From Nitrospira lenta (lineage in GTDB: Bacteria > Nitrospirota > Nitrospiria > Nitrospirales > Nitrospiraceae), in NCBI RefSeq assembly GCF_900403705.1, contig NZ_OUNR01000012.1:310001-374000 (forward strand): 64,000 nucleotides of DNA. The letters are read 5' to 3'. The notes beneath the pieces were generated by a model. The model worked only from the letters and a program-made list of their open reading frames with translations. It was not told where the DNA came from and ran no database searches. Both the position numbers and the translations under genes were made by a program. Shown piece after piece: positions 2,908-55,040 of the stretch (positions within the stretch are counted from its first letter, which is position 1; every line of letters begins with the position of its first letter).

Positions 2908-2912
2908 CCTCC

Positions 2913-38841: not shown

Positions 38842-38919
38842 GGTGGGTGTAGCTCAGTTGGTTAGAGCGCTGGATTGTGGATCCGGAGGTCGCGGGTTCG
38901 AAACCCGTCACTCACCCCA
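38842..38919 (+). tRNA. tRNA-His (GTG)
   Basis: A complete cloverleaf: acceptor GTGGGTG pairs with CACTCAC (one G-T), the D arm is GCTC...GAGC, and the anticodon loop TTGTGGA gives anticodon GTG. The T arm is GCGGGTTCGAAACCCGT, and CCA is encoded. The extra 5' G (38842) faces the discriminator C, as expected for tRNA-His G-1. The 3' half is the integration site of the element; integration regenerates an intact tRNA. Confidence 0.96.
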
Positions 38920-40172: not shown

Positions 40173-40438
40173 GCGACTCGTCGAGGTGGACAGATTTGCG
40201 CCACAACACTCTCAACGATTTCGGTCAGTTGGTCTGAAGGATGGGTAACTCGCTGGGCCTCCATCCATCGGTCGAACTCGTCACGTTTCACCAGCAATTT
40301 CCCGCCTACTCGGTAATGGGGCAATGGGTACATACGGTCAACCAAGCGATCTCGAAGCCATCGCACAGAGCAGCTTGAGTACGCTGCCAGCGTCTTGAGA
40401 TCTAGAAAGCTCGGTTGAACGTGAGTCGGCGATTTCAC
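40169..40438 (-). CDS. AlpA/Xis-like helix-turn-helix protein
   Basis: Protein of 89 residues. A winged-helix/MerR-type DNA-binding module: LDLKTLAAYSSCSVRWLRDRL (helix-turn-helix), followed by PLPHYRVGGKLLVKRDEFDRWME, the wing-helix pattern of phage excisionases and AlpA. It lies directly upstream of the integrase and overlaps both int and dnaB by four bases. It probably directs excision or regulates the arm. Excisionase is inferred from context. Confidence 0.8.
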   Translation of the reverse strand: MKSPTHVQPSFLDLKTLAAYSSCSVRWLRDRLVDRMYPLPHYRVGGKLLVKRDEFDRWMEAQRVTHPSDQLTEIVESVVAQICPPRRVA

Positions 40439-41754
40439 GGCTCGATATCCTCAAACCGTGCGAACCGATCGATAAATTTTAGGCGCCGGTCACCGATCGG
40501 CCCGTTACGATGCTTCCGGATGAGGACCTCGGCGACCCCTTTTTCATCGGTGTCGGGAACATAGACTTCGTGCCGGTAGAGAAACAGAACCACGTCAGCA
40601 TCTTGCTCAATGGCGCCGGAGTCCCGAAGGTCGGCTAACATCGGGCGTTTGTCGGGGCGCTGTTCGCAGGCTCGGGAGAGTTGGGAGAGTGCGAGCACAG
40701 GAATATCCAACTCCTTTGCCAAGAGCTTGAGTCTCCTGGACGCATCGGCTATGCCCTGCTGCCGAGTCTCGGCGCCAGGGAGCAAAAGGAGTTGCAGATA
40801 ATCAACAACCAGAAGATCTAGCCCTTTCGTAGCCTTGAGATGCCGGGCTTTTGCCGCGACTTGCTCCACGGTGAGTACTGTGGAATCGTCTGCCCAGAAC
40901 GGTAGCTGTTCGAACTCTTGGGCGGTGTTGGCGAAGTGCCACCATTCCTCCTGGCGGAGCGTTCCTGTCTTGAGGGTATGCACATCGATTGACGCGGCCA
41001 TCCCAATCACTCGAAGGCCTATTTGTTGACTCGACATCTCTAAGGACAATATCCCCACGTTGTAGCCTGCATGAGCTGCCGCGAGGGCTGACCCGATCGC
41101 GAGGCTGGTTTTCCCCATGCTTGGGCGGGCTGCGATAATCACCAGGTCTGACCGCTGCCACCCGCCTAACAGCGTATCAATCGTTGCAAAGCCAGTAGGA
41201 ATTCCGATCAGAGCCTTTCCCTGTTTGCGGGCACGATCAACGTAGTCGGCAGTTTCGCGGGCGATGTCGGCCCCTGATTGCCAGGTGCGGTCATCCCGTC
41301 CGGCCGCGATTTCTGACGCGCCGCGCTCAACTTCTCTCAGTAGGTCTTCGGTCGGAGCTTTCTCGTAAGCCATTTGGACGAGTGTTGTGCTGCGTTTGAT
41401 CAGCCTGCGTCGAATGGCATGATCACTGACGATACGGGCGTGATGGGTGATATTGGCTGCTGAGCTTACAGTGGTCAGCACTTCGGCCAACGAACCTCGC
41501 CCGCCGATGCGATCCAAACGCCCGTGACGATCAAGCCAATCTCCGACTGTCAGGAGATCGATGAGTACGCTTGTTCCGGCAAGATCGGTCATGGCTTCGA
41601 AAATGTCCCGGTGCCTGGAATCATAGAAGTCGCCGGCCTTCAGAATTTCCTGAGCGTGTGCGAGGGCGGTTGCGTTGATCAGGACGGCTCCAAGGATCGC
41701 CTGCTCGGCGTCGAGATCGTGAGGCTGGATACGAGGGAGGTCAGTGAGTGGCAT
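40435..41754 (-). CDS. dnaB: Replicative DNA helicase DnaB
   Basis: Protein of 439 residues, full length. The N-terminal domain (DLDAEQAILGAVL ... VSSAANITHHARIV) precedes a RecA-type motor with Walker A ARPSMGKTSLA and Walker B LLVVDYLQLL, the SQLSRACEQRPDKRP motif, DLRDSGAIEQDADVV and the arginine-finger region. Located in the element, it should be the element's own replication helicase, loaded by the adjacent initiator-like protein (14-bp overlap). The chromosome's own dnaB would be elsewhere. Confidence 0.95.
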   Translation of the reverse strand: MPLTDLPRIQPHDLDAEQAILGAVLINATALAHAQEILKAGDFYDSRHRDIFEAMTDLAGTSVLIDLLTVGDWLDRHGRLDRIGGRGSLAEVLTTVSSAANITHHARIVSDHAIRRRLIKRSTTLVQMAYEKAPTEDLLREVERGASEIAAGRDDRTWQSGADIARETADYVDRARKQGKALIGIPTGFATIDTLLGGWQRSDLVIIAARPSMGKTSLAIGSALAAAHAGYNVGILSLEMSSQQIGLRVIGMAASIDVHTLKTGTLRQEEWWHFANTAQEFEQLPFWADDSTVLTVEQVAAKARHLKATKGLDLLVVDYLQLLLLPGAETRQQGIADASRRLKLLAKELDIPVLALSQLSRACEQRPDKRPMLADLRDSGAIEQDADVVLFLYRHEVYVPDTDEKGVAEVLIRKHRNGPIGDRRLKFIDRFARFEDIEP

Positions 41755-42697
41755 GAGTCACCAATTCTGATTTGAGTGCAGGCCTGAGATGGTCAACGCA
41801 GCGAGGCTCGTTCGGTCGGCTCTCTGGGCTGGCTGGCTTGCCACAGTCCTGCCCGAAGCGATCGCCTGGGCCTTGGATGCGCTTTGAGCAGGTCGGCGCC
41901 TGGCCCTGGCCGTTCGTAGACTCTTCCGGGGTGATCCAGTCTCTCCACGGTTGGTCTTCCTTGCCGTTCTGCAAGAAGCGGTGAGGGTCCTTGATGCCGA
42001 CGCCCCTCTGGACCAGTTCACTGCTGGCGTAGTGGTGAGTAGCGACAAGAACGAGGCGACGATCTTCAGGATTGAGGGCGTGGAACTTTCTTAGCGCCTC
42101 CGGCTTGCCTACTCGCTTCCCGTTCCTCTTCGGGTAGATCTCCCAGAAATCCTCAAACTCGCGTTCGACCGCCGGAGGCGTCTCCTGCTCTTGTTCCTGC
42201 TCCTGCTCCTGCTCCTGAGTTGGCGAGGGGTTGGGTAAGGGGTTAGGGGAGGGCTTGGGGGAGGGGTGGGGGTACCACTTGGCGAGGGTTTGGAGGAACG
42301 TTTCTTTGACAGCATCTAAGAGGTAGGTAGTGTTAGCCGCGAATCTGGCGAAGAGGGGCGTTGCGGGAAGATCGTCGAGATCTTTGAGGTTGCCCACGAC
42401 ATTATTAGCACTCTCGGGTTGGTTATATCGCCACCAGGTTGGGAGATAGAGCACTCGGGCTTCTGAATCCCACTCCCATTTCAAGGCCAGACAGACCTTC
42501 TCGAAACCTTTGCGGAACGTTGCGGGTAATGTTCCCAAATCTTCGCAGGCTTTGCCGGGAGAGAAAGAGAAGAGGCCGATCCGGTTGGACTGAGCGGTGA
42601 GGATGTAGAGCGCAATGCGTTGTTGCTCGCCGGTCAATTGGCGGAACTTTTCATCAGTCCAGATTCGAGGATCGATTTTTCTGAAGCGGGCAGCCAT
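41741..42697 (-). CDS. Phage-type replication initiation protein
   Basis: Protein of 318 residues. An N-terminal DNA-binding-like domain (MAARFRKIDPRIWTDEKFRQL, typical of phage replisome-organiser proteins) ends near 135. A low-complexity linker follows (143-172; Pro/Ser/Asn then Gln-Glu repeats). The C-terminal FEDFWEIYPKRNGKRVGKPEAL is a segment found in many phage helicase-loader or DnaT-like proteins. It sits directly before dnaB, as O-P or DnaD-like loaders do. The linker-coding DNA is a candidate origin (42182-42272). Confidence 0.75.
   Translation of the reverse strand: MAARFRKIDPRIWTDEKFRQLTGEQQRIALYILTAQSNRIGLFSFSPGKACEDLGTLPATFRKGFEKVCLALKWEWDSEARVLYLPTWWRYNQPESANNVVGNLKDLDDLPATPLFARFAANTTYLLDAVKETFLQTLAKWYPHPSPKPSPNPLPNPSPTQEQEQEQEQEQETPPAVEREFEDFWEIYPKRNGKRVGKPEALRKFHALNPEDRRLVLVATHHYASSELVQRGVGIKDPHRFLQNGKEDQPWRDWITPEESTNGQGQAPTCSKRIQGPGDRFGQDCGKPASPESRPNEPRCVDHLRPALKSELVTHATH
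42182..42272. other. Iteron-like repeat tract, candidate replication origin
   Basis: Inside the initiator-like gene. About six CTCCTG-type hexamers (42182-42219) abut a run of at least six G-blocks of 3-5 bases separated by short spacers (42225-42272), strongly G-rich on the + strand. The arrangement mirrors lambdoid phages, whose origin lies in the middle of the initiator gene. The G-blocks could also form quadruplexes. Function is inferred from position and repeat structure. Confidence 0.45.
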
Positions 42698-42698
42698 T

Positions 42699-42947
42699 TC
42701 AGTTCCTTGCTCTGACAGGTTCGAGGTCGAGCGAATTCACGGTTGTGAGTAGCTGTTCTAGAATCGGATGGGCAGCCATGAGGCACTCGCGCAGACGATC
42801 TTCGGTTGCCGACTCGTCAGCGAGGATCTGGATAGAATTGATCCCACTTAGACCTATTCGGAGAATGATTTCGGGCGGTCTATCGAGGTCGCCGAGTTCC
42901 GGAGAGTTGAGATCAGTTACTTCTTGAGATAAGATTGCTGCCACCAT
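42699..42947 (-). CDS. Small protein upstream of initiator gene
   Basis: Protein of 82 residues with a GGAG site upstream. The first part (LNSPELGDLDRPPEIILRIGLS) and the helical remainder give no recognisable domain. It ends 1 bp before the initiator-like gene and should be co-transcribed with it. Unknown function. Confidence 0.6.
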   Translation of the reverse strand: MVAAILSQEVTDLNSPELGDLDRPPEIILRIGLSGINSIQILADESATEDRLRECLMAAHPILEQLLTTVNSLDLEPVRARN

Positions 42948-42999
42948 TGTTTGCTCCGTTCTGCCGTGTTCGAGTTAGCGCTCGGGCACGGCGTTTTTA

Positions 43000-43227
43000 T
43001 TACTGCTCCTTTTTGGGTCCAGTCGCACTTCGTCTATCCGATGTGACTGCGTGCATTGCAGAACGCCTCTTGGCGAATGCTTCGACGTCAGGGCGACGAA
43101 AGACGCGAACGCCAGTTGCAGTTCGATCGGCTGGAAGTAATCCAGCTGACTCGTATCCGCGTATCGTATTCGGGACAACATCAAGCAGCCGTGCAACTTC
43201 GGCCGTCGTCATAATGGGTGAACTCAT
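43000..43227 (-). CDS. MerR-like/AlpA-like DNA-binding protein
   Basis: Protein of 75 residues, GGGAGG ribosome site. MTTAEVARLLDVVPNTIRGYESAGLLPA is the MerR helix-turn-helix, followed by the wing TGVRVFRRPDVEAFAKRR. No effector domain is present, so it resembles stand-alone MerR-type or excisionase-type regulators. It opens the replication block of the leftward arm and may regulate it. The 43228-43414 gap shows nothing clear. Confidence 0.82.
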   Translation of the reverse strand: MSSPIMTTAEVARLLDVVPNTIRGYESAGLLPADRTATGVRVFRRPDVEAFAKRRSAMHAVTSDRRSATGPKKEQ

Positions 43228-43414
43228 CGTGAACCTCCCTCGTTGTTAGCCTGCTCCATACAGCAAGCCCATTCAGATAGCATCCAGATTCCATCGATTC
43301 TGGCGAAAGGTTCCTGCGGAAATTACTCGATGTTATTCAGGTAGGCGAAAATGCTTTGTGGGGCAAAGAGATTGCCGATTCTGAGATGGCCGGGAGAGTT
43401 TAGGAGTCGGGTGA

Positions 43415-44140
43415 TTAAGGGAGAGGCTGTTGGTTAACGCAGGGGAAGGCAGTAACCCATGCTGAGGGCCCTTTTCGGGCGGTCTCAAGCATATGCTTGG
43501 CGAGTTGCAATAGTTTAGTACCGCGATCTTCCAACATGAAATACTCTGCGGCTCGGCCTTTCTTGTCTGTAGGAATTGGCTGAAATGTTCGGGCAAGTTC
43601 ACCCAGCTGGCGTGGTGAGAGCGGGTTTCGTTTTAATCGGTGATCATTATGGGCCATTAGGGCTTCTATCATTCTGTGGATCGAGTGTTTTCGCCCTCCA
43701 CCTGATGAACGAGGCTTTCCACTGCGTTTCTTGATTCCTTGAACGGCCTCCTTTACTCCACTGAGGATATCGCGTTCACGGGCAGAGGGATCGATGGCCA
43801 GGACAAGAGTTGCAGGATCGTGAAGCGGGAAATAACCTGAGAAGTCGCGTGCGTCACCAAGGCGCTTATCAGGAAGATGCTCTCCTGGGGATTTGACTGT
43901 AATCACGCATCGAATACGGTCAAGTTCTGCTGGTAAATATAAAACTCGTCTAGTCCTAGGACGCCGTCCTCCTAATCCCAACTCCCAGAAATGATGCCCA
44001 GCTTTAGCGTACTGAAGATCTCGCTGGAGCTTTTCTTGTTCCTGTTCTGTCAGGTTTGTAATCCGCTTTAGACTCTCAAAGTAGAGAGCTTGGAGAATGA
44101 GTTCTTTAGGCGGATCCGCCTTGTGCGATTGCACGGTCAT
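43415..44140 (-). CDS. Element protein of unknown function
   Basis: About 241 residues from MTVQSHKADP, preceded by GGGGAGG; an in-frame ATG at 44251 is the alternative. Helical N-terminus (KRITNLTEQEQEKLQRDLQYAKAG), then RRVLYLPAELDRIRCVITVKSPGEHL and a basic KKRSGKPRSSGGGRKH segment that could bind nucleic acid. The C-terminus has a winged-helix-like PLSPRQLGELARTFQP. No family recognised. Lies between the serine recombinase and the MerR-like gene, same strand. Confidence 0.55.
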   Translation of the reverse strand: MTVQSHKADPPKELILQALYFESLKRITNLTEQEQEKLQRDLQYAKAGHHFWELGLGGRRPRTRRVLYLPAELDRIRCVITVKSPGEHLPDKRLGDARDFSGYFPLHDPATLVLAIDPSARERDILSGVKEAVQGIKKRSGKPRSSGGGRKHSIHRMIEALMAHNDHRLKRNPLSPRQLGELARTFQPIPTDKKGRAAEYFMLEDRGTKLLQLAKHMLETARKGPSAWVTAFPCVNQQPLP

Positions 44141-44279
44141 ATCCTCCCCTGGCGAGGCTCCTGGATTGGAAGAGCGGAGGCGCGGCGCCCAGGATTGCGC
44201 CGCCGCTTCGGAGATCAGCCGAAGCGTTGCCTGCTTGGACGTAGCTACCATCCCTGGACGAATGGCGCAAGGTGTTTTG

Positions 44280-44909
44280 TCATGCGACTTGTGACGAGGC
44301 TTCTACTCCTCGCAGAAACCGCCACACGGTTCGAGAACTCACCCCTACCTGCTTGCCGATAGCTCCCATCCCGAGACCTTTCTGCCGAAGCTCAAGAATT
44401 CGTGTGCAGATGTCGGGGTCAGTTTCCTCAATCGTTTTACGTCCCCACCGTTGACCCTTCGCTCTGACTCGCTTGATGCCGGCTTTGACGCGTTCTTGGA
44501 TCATCGAGCGCTCAAATTCTGCGAATACTCCCATCATGCCGAAGAGTGCTTTTCCTCCCGGAGTCGTGCTGTCGATGCCTTGCTGATAGATGAACAAATC
44601 AACCTTCTTCGCATGAATCTCTGAAAGGAAATTCACCAAATGAGTTAGAGACCGTCCCAATCGATCGACCGCCCACACCATCACCACATCGAACTCTCTT
44701 CGGACCGCTCCTTTCCATAAGGCATCGAAGGCCGGCCGTTGATCCCGGCCTTTGGCGCCACTGATGCCCTGGTCGATGAACTCATGGACAATGGGCCAGC
44801 CGTTTCGCTCGGCAACGAGGTGAAGTTCGCGGAGTTGATTCTCGGTAGTCTGGCCGTCCGTTGAAACTCTCGCATAGATTGCAGCTCGCTTGGTTTTGCC
44901 GTCTTTCAT
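44280..44909 (-). CDS. Serine recombinase (resolvase/invertase, Pin-type)
   Basis: Protein of 209 residues from MKDGKTKRAA. The catalytic Ser is in YARVSTDGQT (Ser16). VWAVDRLGRSLTHLV holds the conserved Arg/Asp-Arg-x-x-R block, then GKALFGMMGVFAEFERSMIQERVKAG, with a C-terminal helix-turn-helix (GLGMGAIGKQVGVSSRTVWRFL). The length fits resolvase/DNA invertase. In the element it may resolve multimers or invert a segment; no inverted target pair was recognised. Same strand as the replication genes. Confidence 0.93.
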   Translation of the reverse strand: MKDGKTKRAAIYARVSTDGQTTENQLRELHLVAERNGWPIVHEFIDQGISGAKGRDQRPAFDALWKGAVRREFDVVMVWAVDRLGRSLTHLVNFLSEIHAKKVDLFIYQQGIDSTTPGGKALFGMMGVFAEFERSMIQERVKAGIKRVRAKGQRWGRKTIEETDPDICTRILELRQKGLGMGAIGKQVGVSSRTVWRFLRGVEASSQVA

Positions 44910-45036
44910 CGCGTACCCCCATTTCCAATGCACATGCTTTCTACATAGAAATTCGGCTGATGAGATCTCTTCATTTCAGCGGACTTCTGAGTGGACTTTC
45001 TTCGGGGTAATGTAAACACGGACTTTCATCCTCCTA

Positions 45037-45402
45037 TTATGTGCGGAGAGGGCGGATCAGCTGGAGGATTTGCCCCGTTGAAGTCTTTCGACTTGGCAGT
45101 TTCGGGCCAGCTTCAGCAGCGCCCTCATTTACGAGATCATCTTGTGGGCGATTGTCTGCTACCGATTCATAGCCAGGGGTGGGAGTCCAAGCCGCACCAA
45201 ATCCGGGAGAGCTTTTGCCCCATCGGGAGTCTCCCAATGCAATTCCAATCAGGGCAGCTACTGCTCGCGTGCGGGTAGGGGTCCAGGTTATCTGTGTGTG
45301 CCACGCGTCCAAGAGAGTGATCGTTTTCTCGTCCAACGTGAGTGAAACTCTGCATGTCTTGGGTCGGGGTGTCGTCTCTGAAGTGGCCGGTTCGTTCGGC
45401 AT
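45037..45402 (-). CDS. Ribbon-helix-helix-like regulator, putative
   Basis: Protein of 121 residues. Residues about 15-55 (TCRVSLTLDEKTITLLDAWHTQ ... RAVAALIGIAL) have the strand-helix-helix pattern of CopG/Arc DNA-binding proteins. The rest is disordered-looking. It is divergent from the rightward arm, and the intergenic region carries a perfect palindrome (45449-45472), so it may be the repressor that sets the switch between arms. The assignment is by pattern only. Confidence 0.5.
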   Translation of the reverse strand: MPNEPATSETTPRPKTCRVSLTLDEKTITLLDAWHTQITWTPTRTRAVAALIGIALGDSRWGKSSPGFGAAWTPTPGYESVADNRPQDDLVNEGAAEAGPKLPSRKTSTGQILQLIRPLRT

Positions 45403-45448
45403 GGTGTCTCCTTTCGCTTTCGAGTTGGTCCGCTTGGTTACGTTTTCT

Positions 45449-45472
45449 TTATACGTGAGCGTTCACGTATAA
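45449..45472. promoter_or_regulatory. Perfect palindromic operator, divergent region
   Basis: Inverted repeat TTATACGTGA-GCGT-TCACGTATAA with perfect 10-bp arms. A related half-site CGTGAGCGCTCAG lies at 45498-45510, and a TTGACA hexamer at 45489-45494 sits between them. Located between the RHH-like gene (leftward) and the 55-residue gene (rightward), it should bind the element's regulator. The protein that binds is inferred, not shown. Confidence 0.65.
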
Positions 45473-45523
45473 GTCAACAAATGGTCGATTGACATTTCGT
45501 GAGCGCTCAGGTACGTGGTGAGT

Positions 45524-45691
45524 ATGAAAAAGCGAAAAGACCCCGCAGCCGTTGCCCTCGGCAGAAAGGGCGGCAAGAAGGGCGGACCCGCCAGGGCTGC
45601 AAAGCTTACCGCAGAAGAGCGTAGTGAAAGCGCCAGGAAGGCCGTTCAGGCTCGATGGAAGAAGGCCAAAGAAAAAGACCTGTCTTCCTAA
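45524..45691 (+). CDS. Small basic KGG-type protein
   Basis: Protein of 55 residues: MKKRKDPAAV, GRKGGKKGGPARAAKL, EERSESARKAVQARWKK. The GRKGGKKGG repeat followed by an E-R-S-x-x-A-R-K-A-x-x-A-R-W helix recurs in small proteins encoded near antitoxins and on mobile elements. It may bind nucleic acid. It has a GGTGAG site and is the first gene of the rightward arm, directly after the operator. Its stop codon lies in another palindrome. Confidence 0.65.
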   Translation: MKKRKDPAAVALGRKGGKKGGPARAAKLTAEERSESARKAVQARWKKAKEKDLSS

Positions 45692-45706
45692 CTATCCGGA
45701 TAGTTA
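45689..45706. promoter_or_regulatory. Perfect 18-bp palindrome before the SOS cassette
   Basis: TAACTATCCGGATAGTTA, fully self-complementary, overlaps the stop of the 55-residue gene and precedes HMCES by 22 bp. It could be an operator for the UmuD/LexA-like protein or another regulator; a terminator is less likely because there is no T-tract. Confidence 0.45.
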
Positions 45707-45728
45707 GCGATGGCGCACAAGGGTAGAG

Positions 45729-46403
45729 ATGTGCGGACGCTTCACCCAAACCGCTTCTCCTCAGGTGATTGCCCAACAATTTGGCGTCACCCCTCCACCT
45801 TTGTTCACCTCTCGCTACAACATCGCGCCGTCTCAGCCCATTGCGGCTGTCCGCATTGATCCCGACACCACCACGCGCACTCTTGTCATGCTCCGCTGGG
45901 GGCTCATTCCGTCCTGGGCTAAGGATCCCAAGATCGGGAATCAGTGCATCAATGCGAAAGGAGAGACTGTTGCAGAGAAGCCCTCCTTTCGGTCTGCCTT
46001 CAAAAAGCGCCGCTGTCTGGTTGTGGCAACGGGATTCTATGAATGGCAGGTGCAGGGGCGCATGAAACAACCGATGTGGATCGGACTAGAGAGCAAGGAG
46101 CCCTTTGCCTTTGCGGGATTGTGGGAACACTGGCAGCCCACGGAAGGGGACCCGCTTGAGACGTGTACGATTATCACCACGGAACCGAATGCGCTGATGG
46201 CGCCGATCCACAATCGGATGCCGGTGATTCTCCCGCCCACGGCCTATGAGCAGTGGCTTGACCCTGGGTTTCAACAGGTGGAACCGCTCAAGGCGCTCCT
46301 GCGTCCGTATTCGGGAGAGGAGTCGATCGCCTACCCCGTGAGTACACTGGTCAATAACCCTCGAAATGATGTGCCGCAGTGCCTTGAGCCGGTCTCGGTG
46401 TAG
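45729..46403 (+). CDS. SOS response-associated peptidase (HMCES/YedK, SRAP)
   Basis: Protein of 224 residues. Cys2 (MCGRFT) is the nucleophile that forms a thiazolidine crosslink with abasic sites in single-stranded DNA. Other conserved residues are Asn75 (NAKGE), Glu105 (GFYEW) and His161 (HNRMP). It shields abasic DNA from cleavage. It is the first gene of an HMCES-UmuD-UmuC run, a DNA-damage tolerance cassette carried by the element. Confidence 0.95.
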   Translation: MCGRFTQTASPQVIAQQFGVTPPPLFTSRYNIAPSQPIAAVRIDPDTTTRTLVMLRWGLIPSWAKDPKIGNQCINAKGETVAEKPSFRSAFKKRRCLVVATGFYEWQVQGRMKQPMWIGLESKEPFAFAGLWEHWQPTEGDPLETCTIITTEPNALMAPIHNRMPVILPPTAYEQWLDPGFQQVEPLKALLRPYSGEESIAYPVSTLVNNPRNDVPQCLEPVSV

Positions 46404-46442
46404 GGAGTAGACTGCACCTTGGCCTGGCTGTGAGGATGCCCG

Positions 46443-46868
46443 ATGCACGTTGACGCGATCTACGCCCCCGATCTTTCGACCCGTTACAAGCTGCCGATAT
46501 TCCTAGGGCGACTCCCGGCAGGGTTTCCTTCTCCCGCTGACGACTATATCGAGGGTAAGCTCGATCTCAACCGGAAGCTCATTAAGCACCCGGCTGCGAC
46601 GTTCTTTGTCAAAGTCACCGGCAACTCGATGTTGGGGGCGGGGATTCACAACGGGGACCTCTTGGTCGTCGATAAGTCACTCGAAGCCGTTGATGGAAAT
46701 GTGATCGTAGCCTCACTGGACGGAGAATTAACCGTCAAACGCCTCTATAAGCGGGACAATGTGCTCCGCCTGCTCCCGGACAATAAAGACTATCAGCCTA
46801 TTGAGATTCAGGCCCAACAATCCTTTGAGATTTGGGGCGTCGTCACCAACGTGATCCACGCGCTTTAG
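46443..46868 (+). CDS. umuD: UmuD-like S24 peptidase
   Basis: Protein of 141 residues, the size of UmuD. Catalytic Ser62 (VTGNSML) and Lys99 (GELTVKRL); autocleavage site Ala26-Gly27 in LPAGFPSPADDY. RecA-stimulated self-cleavage yields UmuD', which joins UmuC as Pol V. There is no N-terminal DNA-binding domain, so it is not LexA itself. It lies 9 bp before umuC. Confidence 0.93.
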   Translation: MHVDAIYAPDLSTRYKLPIFLGRLPAGFPSPADDYIEGKLDLNRKLIKHPAATFFVKVTGNSMLGAGIHNGDLLVVDKSLEAVDGNVIVASLDGELTVKRLYKRDNVLRLLPDNKDYQPIEIQAQQSFEIWGVVTNVIHAL

Positions 46869-46877
46869 TGGTCCTCC

Positions 46878-48146
46878 ATGCCCCCCATCTTTGCCCTCGT
46901 CGATTGCAATAATTTCTATGCCTCCTGTGAACGGGTCTTTGCGCCTCGCTTAGAGGGGAAGCCCATTATCGTGCTGTCGAATAATGACGGCTGTGTAGTG
47001 GCTCGATCGAATGAGGCGAAAGCGCTGGGCATTGCGATGGGGGTTCCAGAGTTCCAGATTCGCCCCCTCATTCGAGCCCATCAGGTGCAGGTGTTTTCCT
47101 CGAACTACACGCTCTACGGCGATATGTCGCAACGGGTCATGGAGACCCTAGAGCAGTTCTGCCCGGATCTCGAAATCTATTCGATCGACGAAGCGTTCCT
47201 GAGCCTGACCGGCTTTACGTCGCGAAACCTCACTGACTACGGGCGTACCATTCGGGCCACGGTCAAACGCTGGACCGGTCTCCCGGTCTCCATCGGCATT
47301 GCGGAGACCAAGACCTTGGCGAAGATCGCCAACCGAATCGCGAAGCGAACACCAGACACGGGAGGGGTCTTTGATTTGCTGGCCTGCTCTGACCGTGACG
47401 CGTTGCTCGGCCGGGTGCCGGTTGAAGATGTGTGGGGGATCGGGCGGAATCACACCAGACTCCTGAATCAGCACGGCATCAAGACGGCCCTTCAGTTGCG
47501 CGAGGTTGATGAACAGTGGATCAGGAAACATCTGGGTATCGTGGGCTTGAGGCTAGTAATGGAGCTCCGAGGTGTCTCCTGCTTAGACCTGGAGGAATGC
47601 CCCGCCCCGAAGCAGAGCCTGACATGTTCTCGGTCGTTTGGGCACCCCATCAGCACCCTAGCCGAAATGGAAGAAGCGGTGTCGTCTTATGCATCTCGTG
47701 TAGCGGAGAAATTAAGACGCGGACGACTGGCCGGGACGGTGATGACGGTGTCCCTTACTACAAACGAGTTCAAGGAAGGGCCGCAGTACAGTAACTCCGT
47801 GACGCTGAATCTTTCCGTTGCGACGGACTCCACGGCGGACCTCATCAAGTCGTCGCTTCGGGGAATCCGCGCCATCTACAAAGAGGGCTACAACTACAAG
47901 AAGGCCGGAGTGATACTCACAAGTCTGGTGCCTGCCAGTCAGACACAAGCCGACCTGTTCGATGCTCAAGACAGAGTAAAGTCCAAGCGGCTCATGTCCG
48001 CGCTCGATGCGGTCAATGATCGGTGGGGCGCCGGTACCCTCCACTATGCTTCGAGTGGGATCACCAAGCGCTGGAAGGCACAGTTTCAACACCGTTCGCC
48101 AGCCTATACGACGGATTGGGCTGCATTGCCGATCGTGACGGCCTAG
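46878..48146 (+). CDS. umuC: Y-family DNA polymerase UmuC
   Basis: Protein of 422 residues. The opening [34 protein letters not shown], and catalytic [10 protein letters not shown] mark the palm; the HhH region is [17 protein letters not shown]. The little-finger domain follows, then the UmuC C-terminal extension ending [21 protein letters not shown]. It performs translesion synthesis with UmuD'. The ribosome site is weak, so it is likely coupled to umuD. Confidence 0.97.
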
Positions 48147-48175
48147 TTTTCGCCATATCGGAGCAATGGATTACG

Positions 48176-48880
48176 ATGGATGACCTACTCGGTATTGGTA
48201 GGATATTTGAGGCTTTCGAGCGGGGGACGAGAGAATTTCGCGAGGTCACGAAACTCTATTATGAGCCTATCGTAAAGGTGAAAGGGCAGCTTAAAGCCAC
48301 AGAGCTGCAAATACGAGGTAGAGTGCGTGTAGTCCGTGCGTTACTCGAAGCAGATCGCCAAATTAAGAAGGCTGGCATAAAGAAGCGGACGCTAAATGAA
48401 AAGGTCGCACTTCCGATACTTGAGTACGTTTCACTTGAAACAGAGGATGAACTGATTGAGAAGTGGGCAGGCCTTCTCGCTTCATCAACAGCAGGGGATG
48501 CGGTTCATCCAAGTTTCCCTCATATCCTATCCCAGCTGAGCGTGGATGACGCACAAATTCTCGATAGGCTCTATATTTGGATGCTTGAGGAAGAGCGTGG
48601 TCTTGATTATGCGCGACATAACAGCGGGCAATTGAAACTATTGCTCGGTCTCAGTCACCAGCGGTTCGTGATAGCGACTGAAAACCTATCACGACTTAAA
48701 CTATGTCGTGACGGTCGTGAAGGGGACGATGCTCCTTTTTGGGCGACACCTTCGAGCTTTGTGGATGACCTTCAGCCGTTGAAGCTTACAGTTCTCGGTC
48801 TGAGATTTATTCAGATGTGCAGAGGTCCGAAGAAGATGAAGCGGTCGCCAAAACACTCTCCCAAGAAGCGAAACAATTAG
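48176..48880 (+). CDS. Abi-alpha (DUF4393)-like putative abortive infection protein
   Basis: Protein of 234 residues from MDDLLGIGRI. The central ETEDELIEKWAGLLASSTAGDAVHPSFPHILSQLSVDDAQILDRL fits the Abi_alpha/DUF4393 signature (E-D-E-x-L-x-x-x-W-A-x-L-L ... V-H-P-S-F ... L-x-x-L-D-A). The C-terminus is Lys-rich. Members are linked to phage abortive infection. Base composition is visibly more AT-rich than neighbours (48601-48660 is about 47% GC), suggesting separate acquisition. It is placed directly after umuC. Confidence 0.7.
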   Translation: MDDLLGIGRIFEAFERGTREFREVTKLYYEPIVKVKGQLKATELQIRGRVRVVRALLEADRQIKKAGIKKRTLNEKVALPILEYVSLETEDELIEKWAGLLASSTAGDAVHPSFPHILSQLSVDDAQILDRLYIWMLEEERGLDYARHNSGQLKLLLGLSHQRFVIATENLSRLKLCRDGREGDDAPFWATPSSFVDDLQPLKLTVLGLRFIQMCRGPKKMKRSPKHSPKKRNN

Positions 48881-49108
48881 GCTGATTGGTTGCTTGGCAC
48901 TTCCTGCTTGCTCTAAGTATCTGAGGCCCTCTGTATCCTTCTCTGAGCTCTCGTATCTTCCCCGATACCACACCTTCACCTAACCTTCCTCACTTACCCC
49001 ATAAATTACCCCACAAACTCCCCACTTTCCCCCTTGTGACACCCTCCCCACGTTCGGCACGCGGGTTGCTGAGATCCTTGTAGGAACCTCACACAAGGAG
49101 AACCAGCT

Positions 49109-49519
49109 ATGTCGAATGCCTCGATGTTCCCCACTAGCGCCCCCGTAGCTCCCGGCATCTATATCGACGAGATTGATCCTGGCGCCCCGGACATGCCTGC
49201 CGTCACGCGGGAACTGGTCCGGGCCTCGCTAGAGCAAATCTGTGAACGTGAGCTAGCTGGGGTCGTCTATGAGGAGAATACGTCCGAGACCCGAGCGCAG
49301 CTCACAGCGACTTTGCGCGGGCATCTTGTGATGCGTTGGGCGAAAGATCAGCTCAAAGGACGGTCTGCACAGGAAGCCTTCTTCCTCCGGTGCGATCACC
49401 CCACCACGATGCAGACCGACCTCGACAACGGGTTCCTGATCTGCGAAGTCGGCATGGCACCGGTCAGCCCGTCGGAGTTTGTCGTCTTCCGTATGCTCAT
49501 CCGATTTGCCCCTCGGTAG
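49109..49519 (+). CDS. Miniature phage/eCIS tail-sheath-like protein
   Basis: Protein of 136 residues with AAGGAG 8 bp upstream. The N-terminal PGIYIDEI (about 15-22) matches the opening of contractile-tail sheath proteins. The remainder (about 40-133), with KGRSAQEAFFLRCD, TTMQTDLDNGFLICEVGMAP and SEFVVFRM, matches the sheath C-terminal domain. The several-hundred-residue middle of normal sheaths is missing, yet the frame is intact. No other tail genes are present. It could be a decayed remnant or a functional interference protein. The 48881-49108 gap is pyrimidine-rich on this strand and contains no gene. Confidence 0.72.
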   Translation: MSNASMFPTSAPVAPGIYIDEIDPGAPDMPAVTRELVRASLEQICERELAGVVYEENTSETRAQLTATLRGHLVMRWAKDQLKGRSAQEAFFLRCDHPTTMQTDLDNGFLICEVGMAPVSPSEFVVFRMLIRFAPR

Positions 49520-49554
49520 TAAGGCCCTCGCCAGGACAAAACAAGCCTGTTAGC

Positions 49555-50265
49555 ATGCGGTCTATGCGTTTTGCCTTGGTGATCATTCTCACGGTCCTTC
49601 TCGCTGTTCCCGCGTTCGCGGGAGAATTCGCCGGCCGTGTAGTTGGGGTTATCGATGGCGATACGATCGACGTGCTGCATGATGGCCAAACTGAACGGAT
49701 TCGCCTCAATGGCATCGATACTCCAGAGAAGGGGCAGGATTATGGCCGGCGGGCGAAACAGTTTGCCGAGGATTTCCTTGCCAAGCAGGAAGTAAGGGTT
49801 TTGGCTCATGGCGCCGATAAGTATGGCCGCACGATCGGCGACGTGTTCTTATCGGATGGTACTCACCTCAACAAGGAATTGGTCAAAGCCGGACTGGCTT
49901 GGTGGTACTGTCGTCATTCCTCCGATGAATCGCTGAAGCAACTTGAGGAAGAAGCTCGAGACGCGAAGCGCGGTCTCTGGAAGGATCCGGTTCCTATTCC
50001 GCCGTGGGTGTATCGTAAACTTCAGCGGAAACAGGTGCCAGACGTGTCTGACTTCGATTGTCCTGGTCAGACAGTTTCTCGGGCTCTCGAGTCCGCTTCA
50101 ACTGAATCTCTCGCATCTTCGGTGATTGGTAACAGGCGCAGCCATATCTTTCACCGGGCTGATTGTCCCGGCTATGGCAAGGTGTCGGCCGGAAACCGAG
50201 TCACATTTGAGAGTATCGAAGCAGCGGAAGAGGCGGGATATCGATTAGCAGGGAACTGTCCGTGA
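49555..50265 (+). CDS. Exported SNase nuclease with C-terminal Cys/His domain
   Basis: Protein of about 236 residues from MRSMRFALVI; a second Met at 49564 is equally possible. The signal peptide ends AFAG. The TNase domain is complete: VIDGDTIDVL, RLNGIDTPEKGQ, DKYGRTIGDV and LEEEARDAKRGLWKDP. After a linker, the last 45 residues (HIFHRADCPGYGKVSAGNRV ... GNCP) form an Ada-type Cys/His module. It degrades DNA and RNA outside the cytoplasm. It could attack incoming phage DNA, as inference. It ends 6 bp before the HEPN gene. Confidence 0.88.
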   Translation: MRSMRFALVIILTVLLAVPAFAGEFAGRVVGVIDGDTIDVLHDGQTERIRLNGIDTPEKGQDYGRRAKQFAEDFLAKQEVRVLAHGADKYGRTIGDVFLSDGTHLNKELVKAGLAWWYCRHSSDESLKQLEEEARDAKRGLWKDPVPIPPWVYRKLQRKQVPDVSDFDCPGQTVSRALESASTESLASSVIGNRRSHIFHRADCPGYGKVSAGNRVTFESIEAAEEAGYRLAGNCP

Positions 50266-50271
50266 GGGTTT

Positions 50272-51186
50272 ATGTCTAAATCGTGGGTAGCCTTTGCATT
50301 AATGCACCCGCATGGGGTCATTCCCAAAAGCCTTGCTCTGCCGTATCAGCTGAGTGAGGGGGTTTCATTACAGGCGGCCCCTGATTGCACCGCAATACCC
50401 GATGTGATCGACGGTCTTCGGGAGCAAGTTGGAGAAACGATAGTGGCGGATGGTTGCCATCACTGCATAGCTATAGAGTATTGCTCGGAGAAATCACCTT
50501 CGCAAGGATTGGGGCAAGCTCCAGTCTGGTCCGAACACGACGACTCCGAGCAACGAATACGGCTTGCCCATTTAGCGTTCTGGCTTGTTCGCCCAACAGC
50601 ACTGACCTTCACCACAGTTGTTGTCGCTGAGATGCATGACATCGCGTGGATTACCGCTGCAATTCATACTTACGGCCCTACCTACGGATCAGGGGAAGCT
50701 GCACAAAGTGAGCTTAGCTCAGAGGACCTGGTAGGCGTAAGTAAGACACTCAAGGCTCTTGATGCCGTATCACGTGGGAAGGCAATTCATACAGCTGCTC
50801 TGCTTATAACAAAAGCGCTCTCCGATCCAACTGTAGAATTCCGCTCTCTTCTCATGTGGCTCGCAATGGAAAGCCTCTTTGGCACTTCTGATACAGGTGA
50901 GGTGACATTTCAGTTGGCCCAAAGAGTAGCCTTCTTTTTGGAATCTGATCGATCCAAGGCAAAGGAAACATTCAAATTGGTCAAGGCTTGCTACGATATA
51001 AGATCGAAGCTCGTCCATGGATTCAAGGTGACCAAGATCAGCGATCAGAAATTCAACGAGTTCACGTTGAATTCTGAAACGCTTCTCCGCAGGTCTCTAT
51101 TAACCATCCTCAACGACAATTCAACTATTGAAAATATTGACGGAGCTGGAAGAGACTCCTATCTGAACGGCTTGGCATTTAAGTGA
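50272..51186 (+). CDS. Apea-like HEPN domain protein
   Basis: Protein of 304 residues. The C-terminal half is helical with EFRSLLMWLAMESLFG and then CYDIRSKLVHG, giving the HEPN ribonuclease signature R-x4-H (Arg244 to His249). This is the Apea-like HEPN arrangement. The N-terminal half (1-150) is an unassigned sensor-like region. HEPN RNases of this kind act in anti-phage defence. Base composition is AT-richer than the surrounding genes. It lies 6 bp after the exported nuclease, in the cargo arm. Confidence 0.72.
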   Translation: MSKSWVAFALMHPHGVIPKSLALPYQLSEGVSLQAAPDCTAIPDVIDGLREQVGETIVADGCHHCIAIEYCSEKSPSQGLGQAPVWSEHDDSEQRIRLAHLAFWLVRPTALTFTTVVVAEMHDIAWITAAIHTYGPTYGSGEAAQSELSSEDLVGVSKTLKALDAVSRGKAIHTAALLITKALSDPTVEFRSLLMWLAMESLFGTSDTGEVTFQLAQRVAFFLESDRSKAKETFKLVKACYDIRSKLVHGFKVTKISDQKFNEFTLNSETLLRRSLLTILNDNSTIENIDGAGRDSYLNGLAFK

Positions 51187-51240
51187 GACTAGCCCGACCA
51201 ATACCTACGTTCGAGGTTGGCGAATAGAAGGGCTTTGACG

Positions 51241-51747
51241 ATGGCAGTTCGACGGATCACCTCACAGGATGCAAAAGATGCTTCTCAATCGGCTGACACC
51301 TTCCCCGGTTCAGTCAGTGGGACCTACCTGAGGGTGACGGGTCACGATTACATGGAGAATTTTGACCTTCCGCCCCAGATCCAATACGACGTGATCTATC
51401 TCCTCACCTCCGGCCGCTTTGCGTGGCTGAGTTATTGGTCGGGGTTTGTATACGGTCGACGAGCGGGAAGGTTCACTCGCCAGGGAGCGGATATACAACT
51501 CGAAGGCCGAGATACGCTCTCTTCCGATTGCATCAGCGAAAATCACGAAGGGAAACCATTCATACAGGCCTTGCAGCTAAAGCAACGCGAGGGGAAGCGT
51601 GTGTTGGTTGGGCCTCTTGGAGAGTACTCGTACCTGGGTTTCCGTGTGTTTATTCCCTTTGAGGGCTTAGGGCAGCACCTCTTTCCCCGGAGTTGGGATG
51701 AGTTAGAAGAATGGGTGACTCGCTTCATTCGACCTTGCGTTTCTTGA
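51241..51747 (+). CDS. Hypothetical cargo protein
   Basis: Protein of 168 residues from MAVRRITSQD; an earlier in-frame start at 51217 exists. There is no signal peptide. Aromatic-rich middle (FAWLSYWSGFVYGRRAGRF) and a C-terminal FIPFEGLGQHLFPRSWDELEEWVTRF. No family recognised. It follows the HEPN gene by 54 bp and may be part of the same cassette. Confidence 0.5.
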   Translation: MAVRRITSQDAKDASQSADTFPGSVSGTYLRVTGHDYMENFDLPPQIQYDVIYLLTSGRFAWLSYWSGFVYGRRAGRFTRQGADIQLEGRDTLSSDCISENHEGKPFIQALQLKQREGKRVLVGPLGEYSYLGFRVFIPFEGLGQHLFPRSWDELEEWVTRFIRPCVS

Positions 51748-51760
51748 CGAGAGGTACTCG

Positions 51761-52050
51761 ATGAACGGTCTCAATAGTCTCGGATGGCAGATTCACGACC
51801 ACCTCAAGCAGCATCGCCCAAACATGTTCCGGGCATTGAAGGCCGAGGGACGGCTGAATCAGTACGTCCTCGATCAGCACAAAGAGCCAGCGACAGCCTG
51901 ACCTTCCTGGAACAGCAGGGGATGTATCCGCACGAAGCGATGGAGATGATTCGAGATCAAGTCTTCCCGCCGAGCGAGGAGGACGTGCCGAATCTCGGGG
52001 AGACGATGCAGCCGTACAGCGACAAAGCGCCTGATATACAGATAAGGTGA
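51761..52050 (+). pseudogene. Small gene split by an apparent -1 frameshift
   Basis: A 46-codon frame (51761-51901; MNGLNSLGWQIHDHLKQHRPNMF...) with a GAGAGGT ribosome site ends just where a second frame takes over without its own obvious start (SLTFLEQQGMYPHEAMEMIRDQ ... PPSEEDVPNLGETMQP, to 52050). The two parts read as one continuous helical protein if the frame shifts by -1 near 51880-51899. No classical slippery heptamer is seen. It is either a broken gene, a sequencing slip, or a genuine short gene of 46 residues. Confidence 0.45.
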
Positions 52051-52087
52051 TCAGTAGAGAGCTACTCGAGGTACACGGAGATGCACC

Positions 52088-52717
52088 ATGCGTTTTGCGC
52101 TTGTGTTGACCATTCTGTTCCTAAGCGGGTGTGCCACTGATGGTGGATTGACCAAGGAAGACCAATCTAGGCAAGCCATTCGCAAGCAGGCCTATACGGC
52201 TCCGTTTCCCATGCCCGATATGACAGCCCAGCCGCAGTTTAACGATCCGGACGCCTTTGCCTTGCAGCCTGGACCTGTCGGATCCAAGTATTTGAATGCT
52301 GGTCCTGCACCAGCGGAATCGGACGCTGAGGGAGGGGCAGCCGCGTTAGTGATGCCGCCAGCGACCGCTCCAGCGCCTCCTCAAGCGGCTAGACAGCCGG
52401 CCACTCAGCAACCGCAAGTTCCGCAGGAACCAGAATGGATGACGCCGGCCAGAAAGAAGATGTATGAAAAAGCCTATGAAGCAGGCCGGCAGTATCGTGA
52501 GCAGTACATCGCGGCAAAACGTCCGGTATTTCGGCTAAAGTACCGTCACGAATACCCCACGATGTCAGACGAGGAAGTCGAGGTGCTAGTGAATGATGCG
52601 CTTGAGGATGGGTTACGCGAAGAGGCACGACGCCGCAGTGCTGGGTCTGTCGTGAAGCCTTCCGTCAACTGTACGTCGTCCCAGGTGGGAAGCTACACCT
52701 ATACGGACTGCTATTAG
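52088..52717 (+). CDS. Putative lipoprotein of the element
   Basis: Protein of 209 residues. The signal peptide MRFALVLTILFLSGC ends in a lipobox (LSGC). A Pro/Ala/Gln-rich linker (about 75-120) precedes a helical C-terminal domain: KKMYEKAYEAGRQYREQY and PTMSDEEVEVLVNDALEDGLREEARRR. It ends with two Cys residues. Function unknown; an envelope lipoprotein on a satellite could serve in superinfection exclusion, as inference only. It is the last gene of the rightward arm. The 132 bp to the convergent gene hold nothing recognised. Confidence 0.7.
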   Translation: MRFALVLTILFLSGCATDGGLTKEDQSRQAIRKQAYTAPFPMPDMTAQPQFNDPDAFALQPGPVGSKYLNAGPAPAESDAEGGAAALVMPPATAPAPPQAARQPATQQPQVPQEPEWMTPARKKMYEKAYEAGRQYREQYIAAKRPVFRLKYRHEYPTMSDEEVEVLVNDALEDGLREEARRRSAGSVVKPSVNCTSSQVGSYTYTDCY

Positions 52718-52849
52718 CGAGATTCTCTCACTGCCTTGGCTTGTCGCGTCTTGTTATGCCCTGGCCGCTTGGTTTTCACCGTGGAATCCCCGCAGGCTTC
52801 CTCACTTCAACGTCCTCACGGCTTCCTACTCTCGGCAGACGCCCCGTGC

Positions 52850-53290
52850 CTATTCTGGATGCTCCCACGCATATTGAAGCAGCGATAGGTAGACCGCGAA
52901 CACTTTCGATGTCTCCGTTCCGCCCACCCGTACCGCGACTCGCGCAGAATACTGCCACATGTCTTGAATGAAGGGGTGCTGGTCAAGGATCGTGCGGAAC
53001 TTGGGAAGCTCGAAGAATGGAACGGTGTGTTCGAGCTGGACCACGGCTCGCTCGGCATCCTTCGCCAGTGCCTTGAGTTGTGCGCCTTCAATATCACAGA
53101 GCTGATTGAGCGCCTTTCGAGTGGTTTCTACCGGACAGCCTGAGGCCTGGGCATCTTCTTGCGCCGTGCGCTCCAATTCCTTGAAGATGATCGGCCACGG
53201 TGCCCCGGTTTGGTAGATCTCCATGACCTCATACATGGGCATGAGCGTTTGCTCTGAAAGATAGTGTGCCAGGTCGATCGCGGCTTCCAT
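52850..53290 (-). CDS. Element protein downstream of terS, unknown
   Basis: Protein of 146 residues, mostly helical (ALNQLCDIEGAQLKALAKDAERAVVQLEH; PFIQDMWQYSARVAVRVGG). No family recognised. It is the last gene of the leftward arm as read in the circular form. In phages this position after terS usually carries structural or head-assembly genes. Confidence 0.55.
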   Translation of the reverse strand: MEAAIDLAHYLSEQTLMPMYEVMEIYQTGAPWPIIFKELERTAQEDAQASGCPVETTRKALNQLCDIEGAQLKALAKDAERAVVQLEHTVPFFELPKFRTILDQHPFIQDMWQYSARVAVRVGGTETSKVFAVYLSLLQYAWEHPE

Positions 53291-53317
53291 AACTCCTCGT
53301 GTCCTTTGGAAGCGAGC

Positions 53318-53758
53318 CTAATATCCCGTTCTCATGCGTGGTCGACGCATGAAGGGGGGCGATGCCAACAGGGCGGCAGGGCTCACCATCGGTGGTTTGG
53401 CTGCTGGGGAAGGTCTCGGAGCTGGTGTCGATGCCTGACCAACCTCAAATCTCGATAGCGGAATCCCCAGCTTCCCAGGCGTCTCGATGGGTTGAGACGA
53501 GGGGATGCGTGGCCGGGTGGCCGTCAGTTGGGCCGCCTGCTCCGCGTCCTCATAACTCGGTCCCAGTCCGGATGGGCCCCGATTCCATTCATTTTGACCC
53601 ATCTGCCAGCCCTGTTGGACAGCAAGACGATCGAGGTGCATTTCCCTCTGTTGCTCGATGTATTTGTCTTGCTGTTTCATCTGCATGCCTCGAATGAACA
53701 TATCGGTTACCATTCCCACGCCTCGTTCAACCCCTTGCCCGATTCCATATGAACTCAT
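53318..53758 (-). CDS. Gln/Met-rich element protein, possible phage virion-type
   Basis: Protein of 146 residues, with a GGAGG-type site upstream. The N-terminus (GIGQGVERGVGMVTDMFIRGMQMKQQDKYIEQQREMHLDR) is a Met/Gln-rich helix of the sort found in small phage virion or injection-associated proteins. The C-terminus is Pro/Ala/Arg-rich and disordered-looking. No firm family. It sits 66 bp after terS. Confidence 0.5.
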   Translation of the reverse strand: MSSYGIGQGVERGVGMVTDMFIRGMQMKQQDKYIEQQREMHLDRLAVQQGWQMGQNEWNRGPSGLGPSYEDAEQAAQLTATRPRIPSSQPIETPGKLGIPLSRFEVGQASTPAPRPSPAAKPPMVSPAALLASPPFMRRPRMRTGY

Positions 53759-53824
53759 ACGCGCCTCCTTGGTTAATAAACTGCCCGACTTACTATGTGA
53801 TGTCCTGACCTGACACCTTCGAGA

Positions 53825-54412
53825 TCATGAGTCGCCGTGTCCTATTTGTTTAGGCTCCATCCGTGGCCCGACCATCGCCTTCTTCCTTATCCGCATGAAC
53901 TCTTTAAATTCCTCATCGGTCAGCTTCGAGAGATCGAACTGTGCCGGAGGAGCGGACGGAGACTGTTTCATCTTCTCTCGCGGAATATCTCCCACCAGCT
54001 TCGAGTAGTTCATAATCGCGCTCTGCTTATCGACAAACCTGATCCTCGTGACAAGACTTACTGGATCGACTTCATAGGCCGCAATCGCTCGGCGAGCATG
54101 CTCGGGCATCGCCCGAAGGGACAACGGATGGCCAAAGTTATCGAAACAATCGGCGGGATCAAGGAACATCGCACAGGCCAACTCTGTGAGTCGATTTGCC
54201 ATGGTCTCTTGCACTTGTGCCACCACTGGTGCACGAAGTTCTGTGATCCTTGTCCGAATCTTGCCCATCTTTGCCAAACGGCATGCCTTTTCGTTGATCG
54301 TTTTCTTGCTCATCTGTTTGGGCACATAGGCCACTCGGTATGCCTCGGTCAGCTTCTGGCCAATCACGATCTCCTGACAAAAGCGTTCCTGTTTGGATGT
54401 CAACTTACTCAC
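53825..54412 (-). CDS. terS: Terminase small subunit
   Basis: Protein of 195 residues. The N-terminal LTSKQERFCQEIVIGQKLTEAYRVAY ... INEKACRLAKMGKIRTRITEL is the Terminase_2 helix-turn-helix and oligomerisation region. The middle has DPADCFD and SLVTRIRFVDKQSAIMNYSKLVGD. TerS recognises the pac/cos site and with TerL packages DNA; no TerL is present here. A lone terS is a hallmark of satellites that redirect helper packaging. It starts by ATGA overlap with the TSCPD gene. Confidence 0.88.
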   Translation of the reverse strand: MSKLTSKQERFCQEIVIGQKLTEAYRVAYVPKQMSKKTINEKACRLAKMGKIRTRITELRAPVVAQVQETMANRLTELACAMFLDPADCFDNFGHPLSLRAMPEHARRAIAAYEVDPVSLVTRIRFVDKQSAIMNYSKLVGDIPREKMKQSPSAPPAQFDLSKLTDEEFKEFMRIRKKAMVGPRMEPKQIGHGDS

Positions 54413-54840
54413 TCCGGCACCTCCCGATGTATCTTTTGGTGTATGGAAGATGACCCATTCGAAACCTGAGCATGGGCCAACTCATCATGTCCGCAATACT
54501 CAACCAGCAGATGCCGGCCGATCAAATCCGGGACACTCGAACAATGCTTCAGGCGATCGTGCCCGGACACAGGGCCGCATGGATCAAATTTGGCTCCAGC
54601 GAGGAGATCGCCGACCTTTTCAAGCGGAGCGCCGTACTGCAGGGCTACGCTCATCAGGCGGGCAATGACGTCGTAGAGGCCAATCAACTCAGAAGTGCAG
54701 TCCGGACCTTTGAGCCTGAGGAAGATTTCGGCTGGTTGAGGATCGTCATGCACGCTGAGGTAGAGCGTCCGCTGCCCGGAGATGCGAACTTTCTGGATGA
54801 CGTGTCGTCGACGAGCGGGGAGAACGAGACGTTGGCTCAT
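54409..54840 (-). CDS. TSCPD domain protein (ribonucleotide reductase-type)
   Basis: Protein of 143 residues. QKVRISGQRTLYLSVHDD, AEIFLRLKGPDCTSELIGLYD, ALQYGAPLEKVGDLLAGAKF and HCSSVPDLIGRHLLVEYCG match the TSCPD domain found at the end of class II ribonucleotide reductases and as a stand-alone phage protein. The role in phages is unclear; nucleotide metabolism is likely. Its ATG overlaps the stop of the frame that continues the integrase in the circular form. It is co-transcribed with terS. Confidence 0.8.
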   Translation of the reverse strand: MSQRLVLPARRRHVIQKVRISGQRTLYLSVHDDPQPAEIFLRLKGPDCTSELIGLYDVIARLMSVALQYGAPLEKVGDLLAGAKFDPCGPVSGHDRLKHCSSVPDLIGRHLLVEYCGHDELAHAQVSNGSSSIHQKIHREVPE

Positions 54841-55040
54841 GACGGCAGCTCCTCGCCAGAAGCCGCCGTATCTGTAGTACCGTCCTGAGACTTAGATTTC
54901 TGGTTGCGGCTGGTTGCGGATTCGCGTATTTCTTGCCTGCTTTTGCCTCGATCTGCCGAGCTAAGTGCTTGATCTTGTTGATTGGCTTGATGGTCACATA
55001 AAATTCGAAACCCGTCACTCACCCCATCTCGTTTCCTCAT
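54837..55040 (-). CDS. Open frame across attR: alternative integrase C-terminus
   Basis: A 67-codon frame starting in host DNA (MRKR), passing through the attR core (DGVSDGFR, the same frame and residues as in the integrase) and continuing ILCDHQANQQDQALSS ... TAASGEELPS. In the integrated state it is probably an orphan. In the excised circle the same frame becomes the last 55 residues of the integrase (480 residues in all), ending by ATGA overlap with the TSCPD gene. An alternative frame (GTG 55018, reading KPINKIKHLARQIEAKAGKKYA) also has coding character in its first third. Confidence 0.5.
   Translation of the reverse strand: MRKRDGVSDGFRILCDHQANQQDQALSSADRGKSRQEIRESATSRNQKSKSQDGTTDTAASGEELPS
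55004..55029. repeat. attR core, 26-bp direct repeat
   Basis: Identical to 38897-38922. It marks the right end of the element. Host sequence resumes to the right. It lacks the 5' tRNA half, as expected for the displaced tRNA end after tRNA-targeted integration. Confidence 0.92.

Follow-up and report, generated by a model that had tools for sequence, protein, structure and literature searches.

A short, conserved Nitrospira gene joins the N-terminal arm of contractile sheaths directly to their C-terminal domain behind a predicted sigma54 promoter

The window analyzed here, a stretch of 64,000 nucleotides from Nitrospira lenta, contains a 16.1-kb integrated element (38897–55029) bounded by perfect 26-bp repeats: attL, at the 3′ end of a tRNA-His (38897–38922, forward strand), and the identical attR (55004–55029, forward strand). 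Between these repeats lie genes for an integrase, an excisionase, DnaB, a DnaD-like loader, a DNA invertase, SRAP-UmuDC, Abi_alpha, a staphylococcal-type nuclease (SNase), and a terminase small subunit, together with the short gene that is the subject of this report, hereafter the mini-sheath gene. No capsid or tail genes were found in the element, which looks satellite- or IME-like. The mini-sheath gene is preceded by an SRAP/YedK–UmuD–UmuC cassette (45729–48146, forward strand; Pfam) and followed by an SNase gene encoding a signal peptide (49555–50265, forward strand; PF00565, 2.4e-26), with which it is probably co-transcribed in this genome. Between umuC and the mini-sheath gene sits an Abi_alpha gene (48164–48880; PF14337, 1.8e-21; PADLOC PDC-S47, 8.6e-10), a candidate defense gene. 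The C-terminal extension of the nuclease weakly resembles an Ada zinc-binding domain (E 0.0033, below the cut-off).

As a preliminary description of this DNA had stated, the mini-sheath gene is intact. Its reading frame runs exactly from 49109 to 49519 on the forward strand (ATG at 49109, stop codon at 49517–49519), encodes 136 amino acids, and is preceded by an AAGGAG ribosome binding site (49095–49100, forward strand) 8 nt before the ATG, with CACACAAGGAG conserved in close relatives. In phmmer searches, residues 41–129 (49229–49495, forward strand) corresponded to the sheath C-terminal domain—the handshake platform—of solved contractile systems (9ezm, 8.5e-16; 8bl4, 9.1e-15; 8bky, 1.8e-14), followed in order by the Afp, Pvc, Anabaena, and Algoriphagus sheaths. 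The ORF also matched PHROG 17610 (‘tail sheath’) at 1.7e-10, and as a single sequence gave 14 bits with Pfam Phage_sheath_1C, which is under the Pfam cut-off. Ahead of this domain, residues 13–30 (VAPGIYIDEIDPGAPDMP; 49145–49198, forward strand) represent the N-terminal arm; a segment this short reaches only about 2 bits when searched as a single sequence. A profile derived from 38 real sheath N-termini, by comparison, gave 13.3 bits for the mini-sheath and 22.4 bits for one relative, against 4.5 bits for the best of 1000 shuffled N-termini. Neither the ORF nor the rest of the genome contains the subtilisin-like sheath core (PF04984). We conclude that the ORF is a contractile-sheath N-terminal arm joined straight to the sheath C-terminal domain, with the core gone; this architecture, already proposed on first reading, is real and well beyond chance.

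An AlphaFold2 model built with 36 sequences (pLDDT 85.8, pTM 0.77) comprises a strand at residues 16–23 within the arm (DSSP), helices at 31–48 and 59–78, and strands at 91–94, 109–116, and 125–132. Compared with known structures (Foldseek, VIA-align; aligned over residues 31–120), the model best matched an eCIS sheath C-domain (6j0n chain V; Z 10.7, rmsd 1.8, 90 residues), with further eCIS matches to 7b5h (Z 10.3) and 9qgp (Z 10.1), and the comparison with sheath structures that had been proposed as a check therefore came out in favor of a sheath domain. The mini-sheath has the same fold (Z 6–10.7, rmsd about 2) as eCIS and other contractile sheaths—Pvc2-4, Afp2-4, and those of Algoriphagus, Streptomyces, and haloarchaea (PF17482)—and has in common with them the N-arm motif PG[IV]YxxE and a C-domain of ~90 residues. 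Unlike them, it is without the PF04984 core and the wall domains, carries CxxEL in place of [ILV]xxG, has a sigma54 promoter of its own, and lies outside a CIS cluster. In assembled sheaths, the N-terminus of one subunit pairs with the C-terminus of its neighbor, and the two together dock onto the C-domain in the ring beneath (PMC10457771); the role of the two retained regions as inter-subunit contacts, as put forward in the preliminary description, is hence established for sheaths.

The model also matched T4 gp25 and gp25-like proteins, albeit less well (5iv5_BD, Z 7.7, 95 residues, rmsd 3.4; 9f4b_AA, Z 7.4; 2ia7, Z 6.8), and the Z of 7.7, being below 8, is weak taken alone. These matches fit an alternative in which the mini-sheath would start or end sheath assembly as an accessory of a contractile injection system (CIS), similar to gp25 or a cap adaptor and co-regulated with its effectors through sigma54. 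Initiators of the gp25 type are small proteins in their own right that look like the sheath C-domain and imitate the handshake (PMC10457771; PMC8894135), and the mini-sheath is like T4 gp25, XM1 gp15, and Alg9 in this respect. It differs from gp25/TssE proteins, however, in having a sheath-type N-arm, in having no baseplate cluster around it, and in giving no match to PF04965 (GPW_gp25) in a Pfam scan with E up to 1, which listed only Phage_sheath_1C and NACHT. The NACHT match (E 0.14) was dismissed as noise.

Profile searches of 175 genomes of the family identified 25 short-form copies in 23 genomes, none with an internal stop codon. Short forms scored 145–202 bits over nearly the whole model, whereas full-length sheaths reached at most 109 bits and matched in the C-domain only. 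Within the same genus (79 genomes), three further short forms were found beside full-length sheaths, with more across the family, and a search with alignment A3 returned ten loci, all from Nitrospira, Nitrospiraceae, or Nitrospirota MAGs. No relative was retrieved from IMG/VR with the mini-sheath protein or alignment A1, nor from GTDB contigs with A1; phage and plasmid collections yielded sheath genes, with the short form absent at the places checked. A Serratia match covering 96% of the query proved to be the last part of a 398-aa gene that belongs to an eCIS-like cluster, and was discarded. Most short-form relatives are chromosomal and lie outside satellite elements, and the suggested search for homologs of the same short form in other satellites gave a mixed result: intact homologs exist, but mostly not in such elements. 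Just upstream of the chromosomal short form in one genome (G039; L034/L035), we noticed by eye a recombinase zinc-ribbon-like fragment, hinting at past mobility.

Substitutions between copies fall mostly on third codon positions. Compared with the copy in G039, the window copy has a dN of 0.15 and a dS of 0.89 (changes by codon position 20/14/52); compared with G067/G068, dN is about 0.26–0.27 and dS 1.1–1.2. With dN/dS at about 0.2, short-form genes are under purifying selection. Although the ORF is short and, in the window, sits on a single mobile element, as a decaying prophage or eCIS remnant that merely happens to be open might, we reject that reading as scarcely credible given a conserved family of intact short forms whose promoter and sequence signature are likewise conserved. 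The preliminary description had named stop-ridden fragments as the outcome that would speak against it, and the homologs are not of that kind.

The family also stands apart in its sequence. In a tree with 42 sheath C-domains, 16 short forms make up one side of a single branch (support 100/100). All 16 carry CxxEL (C45-x2-E48-L49 in the window copy; 49241–49255, forward strand), as do two short forms found later, versus 0/42 full-length sheath C-domains, most of which have [ILV]xxG at this place. The short-form family hence has a single origin and a private signature. A loose N-arm pattern was met by 14 of the 16, compared with 0.25% of shuffled N-termini; in four members the N-arm profile gave bits near zero or negative, and the arm similarity fades there. 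Two cysteines, C45 and C112, are shared by all 16 short forms but are not invariant in sheaths. This invariance is what speaks for a further alternative, namely a non-assembling adaptor or sensor in which the C-domain would be a mere scaffold and C45, C95, and C112 a redox or metal site read by PilZ. We regard it as distinctly unlikely, for it leaves the retention of the N-arm unexplained, and C95 is ordinary in sheaths (39/42).

Upstream of the mini-sheath gene, we identified a sigma54-type promoter with −24/−12 elements (TTCGGCACGCGGGTTGCT; 49053–49070, forward strand) 38 nt 5′ of the start codon. An activator-type dyad, GTATC-TTCCCC-GATAC (48953–48968, forward strand), lies 87 nt 5′ of the GG in the −24 element, and a second GTATC half-site (48933–48937, forward strand) is located 20 bp 5′ of the dyad. 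This arrangement recurs across the family. All 15 short-form copies examined have a sigma54 site (score 16–18 of 18) 26–61 nt before the start codon; the site in G039 deviates at one position of the −12 element. Ten of the 15 have the exact GTATC-N6-GATAC dyad 74–76 nt (in the window 87 nt) before the −24 GG, and most relatives with an exact dyad have a second GTATC 19–22 bp 5′ of it. Two later-found short forms have a sigma54 site upstream as well, and eight more were recognized by the combined dyad and sigma54 pattern itself. Across the 175 genomes, this combined pattern occurred at 55 sites, compared with none for a reversed-pattern control.

The genome in question encodes rpoN, and the same −24/−12 pattern is also found before genes for a flagellar rod-like and a pilin-like protein, where genuine RpoN sites would be expected. 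With its sigma54-type promoter and upstream activator-type site, the mini-sheath gene is predicted to be sigma54-dependent. It is the only gene in this genome with the full pattern; no sigma54 site is close to the remaining exact dyads, which seem unrelated. LexA control, an idea that came from the SRAP-umuDC neighbors, was considered; the upstream sites match sigma54 instead. The short-form promoters are similar in layout to those of the PEP-CTERM/PrsR system, where an activator motif and a spacer (mean 62.8 nt) precede a −24/−12 site before single-gene operons (PMC1569441). The published PrsR motif ends in TTTACA, however, and thus differs from the Nitrospira dyad, which is why PrsR was set aside as the activator.

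In related genomes, the dyad plus sigma54 pattern lies in front of genes for VgrG, two Tle1-like lipases, a patatin, a heme peroxidase, a DsbA-like protein, esterase-like proteins, and—called by eye—a polyketide synthase (for example, L110/L136, L121, L137, and L138). Another frequent target is a family of 357-aa predicted lipoproteins (g4 genomes; L133, L134, L135, L130, L131, and L125), for which a scan of one member returned no Pfam match. The pattern possibly marks an antagonism or export regulon in Nitrospira; such a toxin/export regulon is a prediction from the DNA pattern. Sites in front of VgrG and Tle1-like lipases are in line with a CIS accessory, as there is a precedent in Pseudomonas aeruginosa, where sigma54 and an activator (RpoN/Sfa2) control the H2-T6SS together with scattered vgrG/effector islands (PMC8855297). 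That case resembles the Nitrospira pattern in placing scattered VgrG and effector genes under sigma54 and an activator, but it concerns another organism and another activator, whereas the Nitrospira link is a motif prediction.

Further indications of how the short form is employed came from its neighbors in other genomes. In genus g4, the operon opens with a PilZ gene, immediately followed by the short form (L066, L069), while one genome (G270) encodes two fusions of PilZ with the short form, L063 (3.2e-8; 2275–3153) and L064 (6.3e-13; 3981–4736). G217 likewise has a PilZ gene near the short form, and G419 has one downstream of umuC. The PilZ partner and fusion sequences show the c-di-GMP motifs RxxxR and [DN]x[ST]xxG, so that these relatives compare with PilZ c-di-GMP effectors, unlike the window copy, next to which no PilZ gene was found. 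The literature searched contained no case of a PilZ domain combined with a sheath domain. A second association is with the SRAP-umuD-umuC cassette and the exported SNase, beside which the short form is found in three genera (the window, G419, and G215); SNase is the next gene after the short form in G419 and G215, too. Identity among these three is 75–87% for the SOS genes and 51–66% for SNase.

Do short forms occur together with a contractile machine? Of 13 carrier genomes checked, ten, this genome included, lack gp25, a near-universal baseplate part; in this, the short form departs from gp25/TssE proteins, as it occurs where no such baseplate gene was found. Nine of the 13 are without a sheath core, among them this genome and the single-contig genomes G039, G212, and G248. 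Sheaths are rarer in carriers (3/23) than in non-carriers (53/152), with a Fisher p of 0.053 that is not corrected for phylogeny and becomes 0.15 when a core hit in G215 is counted. None of the loci read shows a short form inside a CIS gene cluster. Since genomes with a short form tend to be without a sheath and gp25 is missing even in closed genomes, we consider an initiator or terminator of a CIS quite improbable.

The preliminary description had proposed sheath interference. In the form considered here, the mini-sheath would use its two contact regions to enter a sheath under construction, be it that of a helper phage, of a contractile-tail phage coming in, or of a tailocin, and cap or poison it, in the service of defense or satellite parasitism. 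Retention of exactly both inter-subunit contact parts (PMC10457771) suits such a role, as does the location of the window copy on a satellite-like element that encodes a terminase small subunit, adjoining an Abi_alpha gene; even genomes devoid of their own sheath would fit if the target arrives from outside. The satellite-like nature of the carrier thus held up. Interference itself, whether with an incoming phage or a helper sheath, is possible yet unlikely, and unsupported so far: the relatives are mostly chromosomal, nine of the 13 carriers checked encode no sheath that it could cap or poison, PADLOC returned no match for the mini-sheath protein, and the sequence stays similar between genera, whereas an arms-race factor might be expected to diversify. 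Interference would also leave the PilZ coupling and the sigma54/activator control unexplained.

A conserved, tightly regulated, and often PilZ-linked family argues for a reused tail part rather than a broken fragment. The combination of the parts kept, sigma54 control, and PilZ partners leads us to favor, at a probability of just under one half, that the mini-sheath is an exapted sheath handshake module, now induced through sigma54, linked to c-di-GMP, and serving as an adaptor for assembly or docking. According to this scenario, the large sheath core would have been lost, and the remaining N-arm and C-domain then kept as a Nitrospira gene family of their own. An NtrC-type activator might bind the GTATC-N6-GATAC dyad and turn the gene on via sigma54. 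As the arm and platform are kept and the wall is dropped, the protein could assemble or dock without contracting. Subunits would join by strand exchange, the N-arm of one being added to the C-domain sheet of its neighbor, as in sheath rings; we infer such self-assembly from the retained parts. The product may be a ring, a chain, or a docking platform without a contractile wall, and in relatives the attached PilZ domain would place its assembly under c-di-GMP. The mini-sheath would then act not as a contracting sheath but as a handshake adaptor, comparable to gp25 or to the cap adaptor of an eCIS, and would take part in an envelope or antagonism response. A bolder version, which we hold only tentatively and think doubtful as it stands, is that the Nitrospira handshake is a c-di-GMP-gated, sigma54-induced polymerizing protein whose ring or filament would not contract and would need no injection machine, which would put the contractile-tail fold to a new purpose.

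Contractile-tail parts are already known from injection machines and phages. A conserved family that consists of the two ends only, has its own sigma54 promoter and PilZ partners, and occurs where no machine was found would show that the handshake joint is reusable alone, and the mini-sheath, at 15 kDa, makes strand-exchange assembly controlled by c-di-GMP open to testing. At the level of the organism, the DNA signature GTATC-N6-GATAC plus −24/−12 predicts a regulon with toxin-like genes in important, hard-to-grow nitrifiers.
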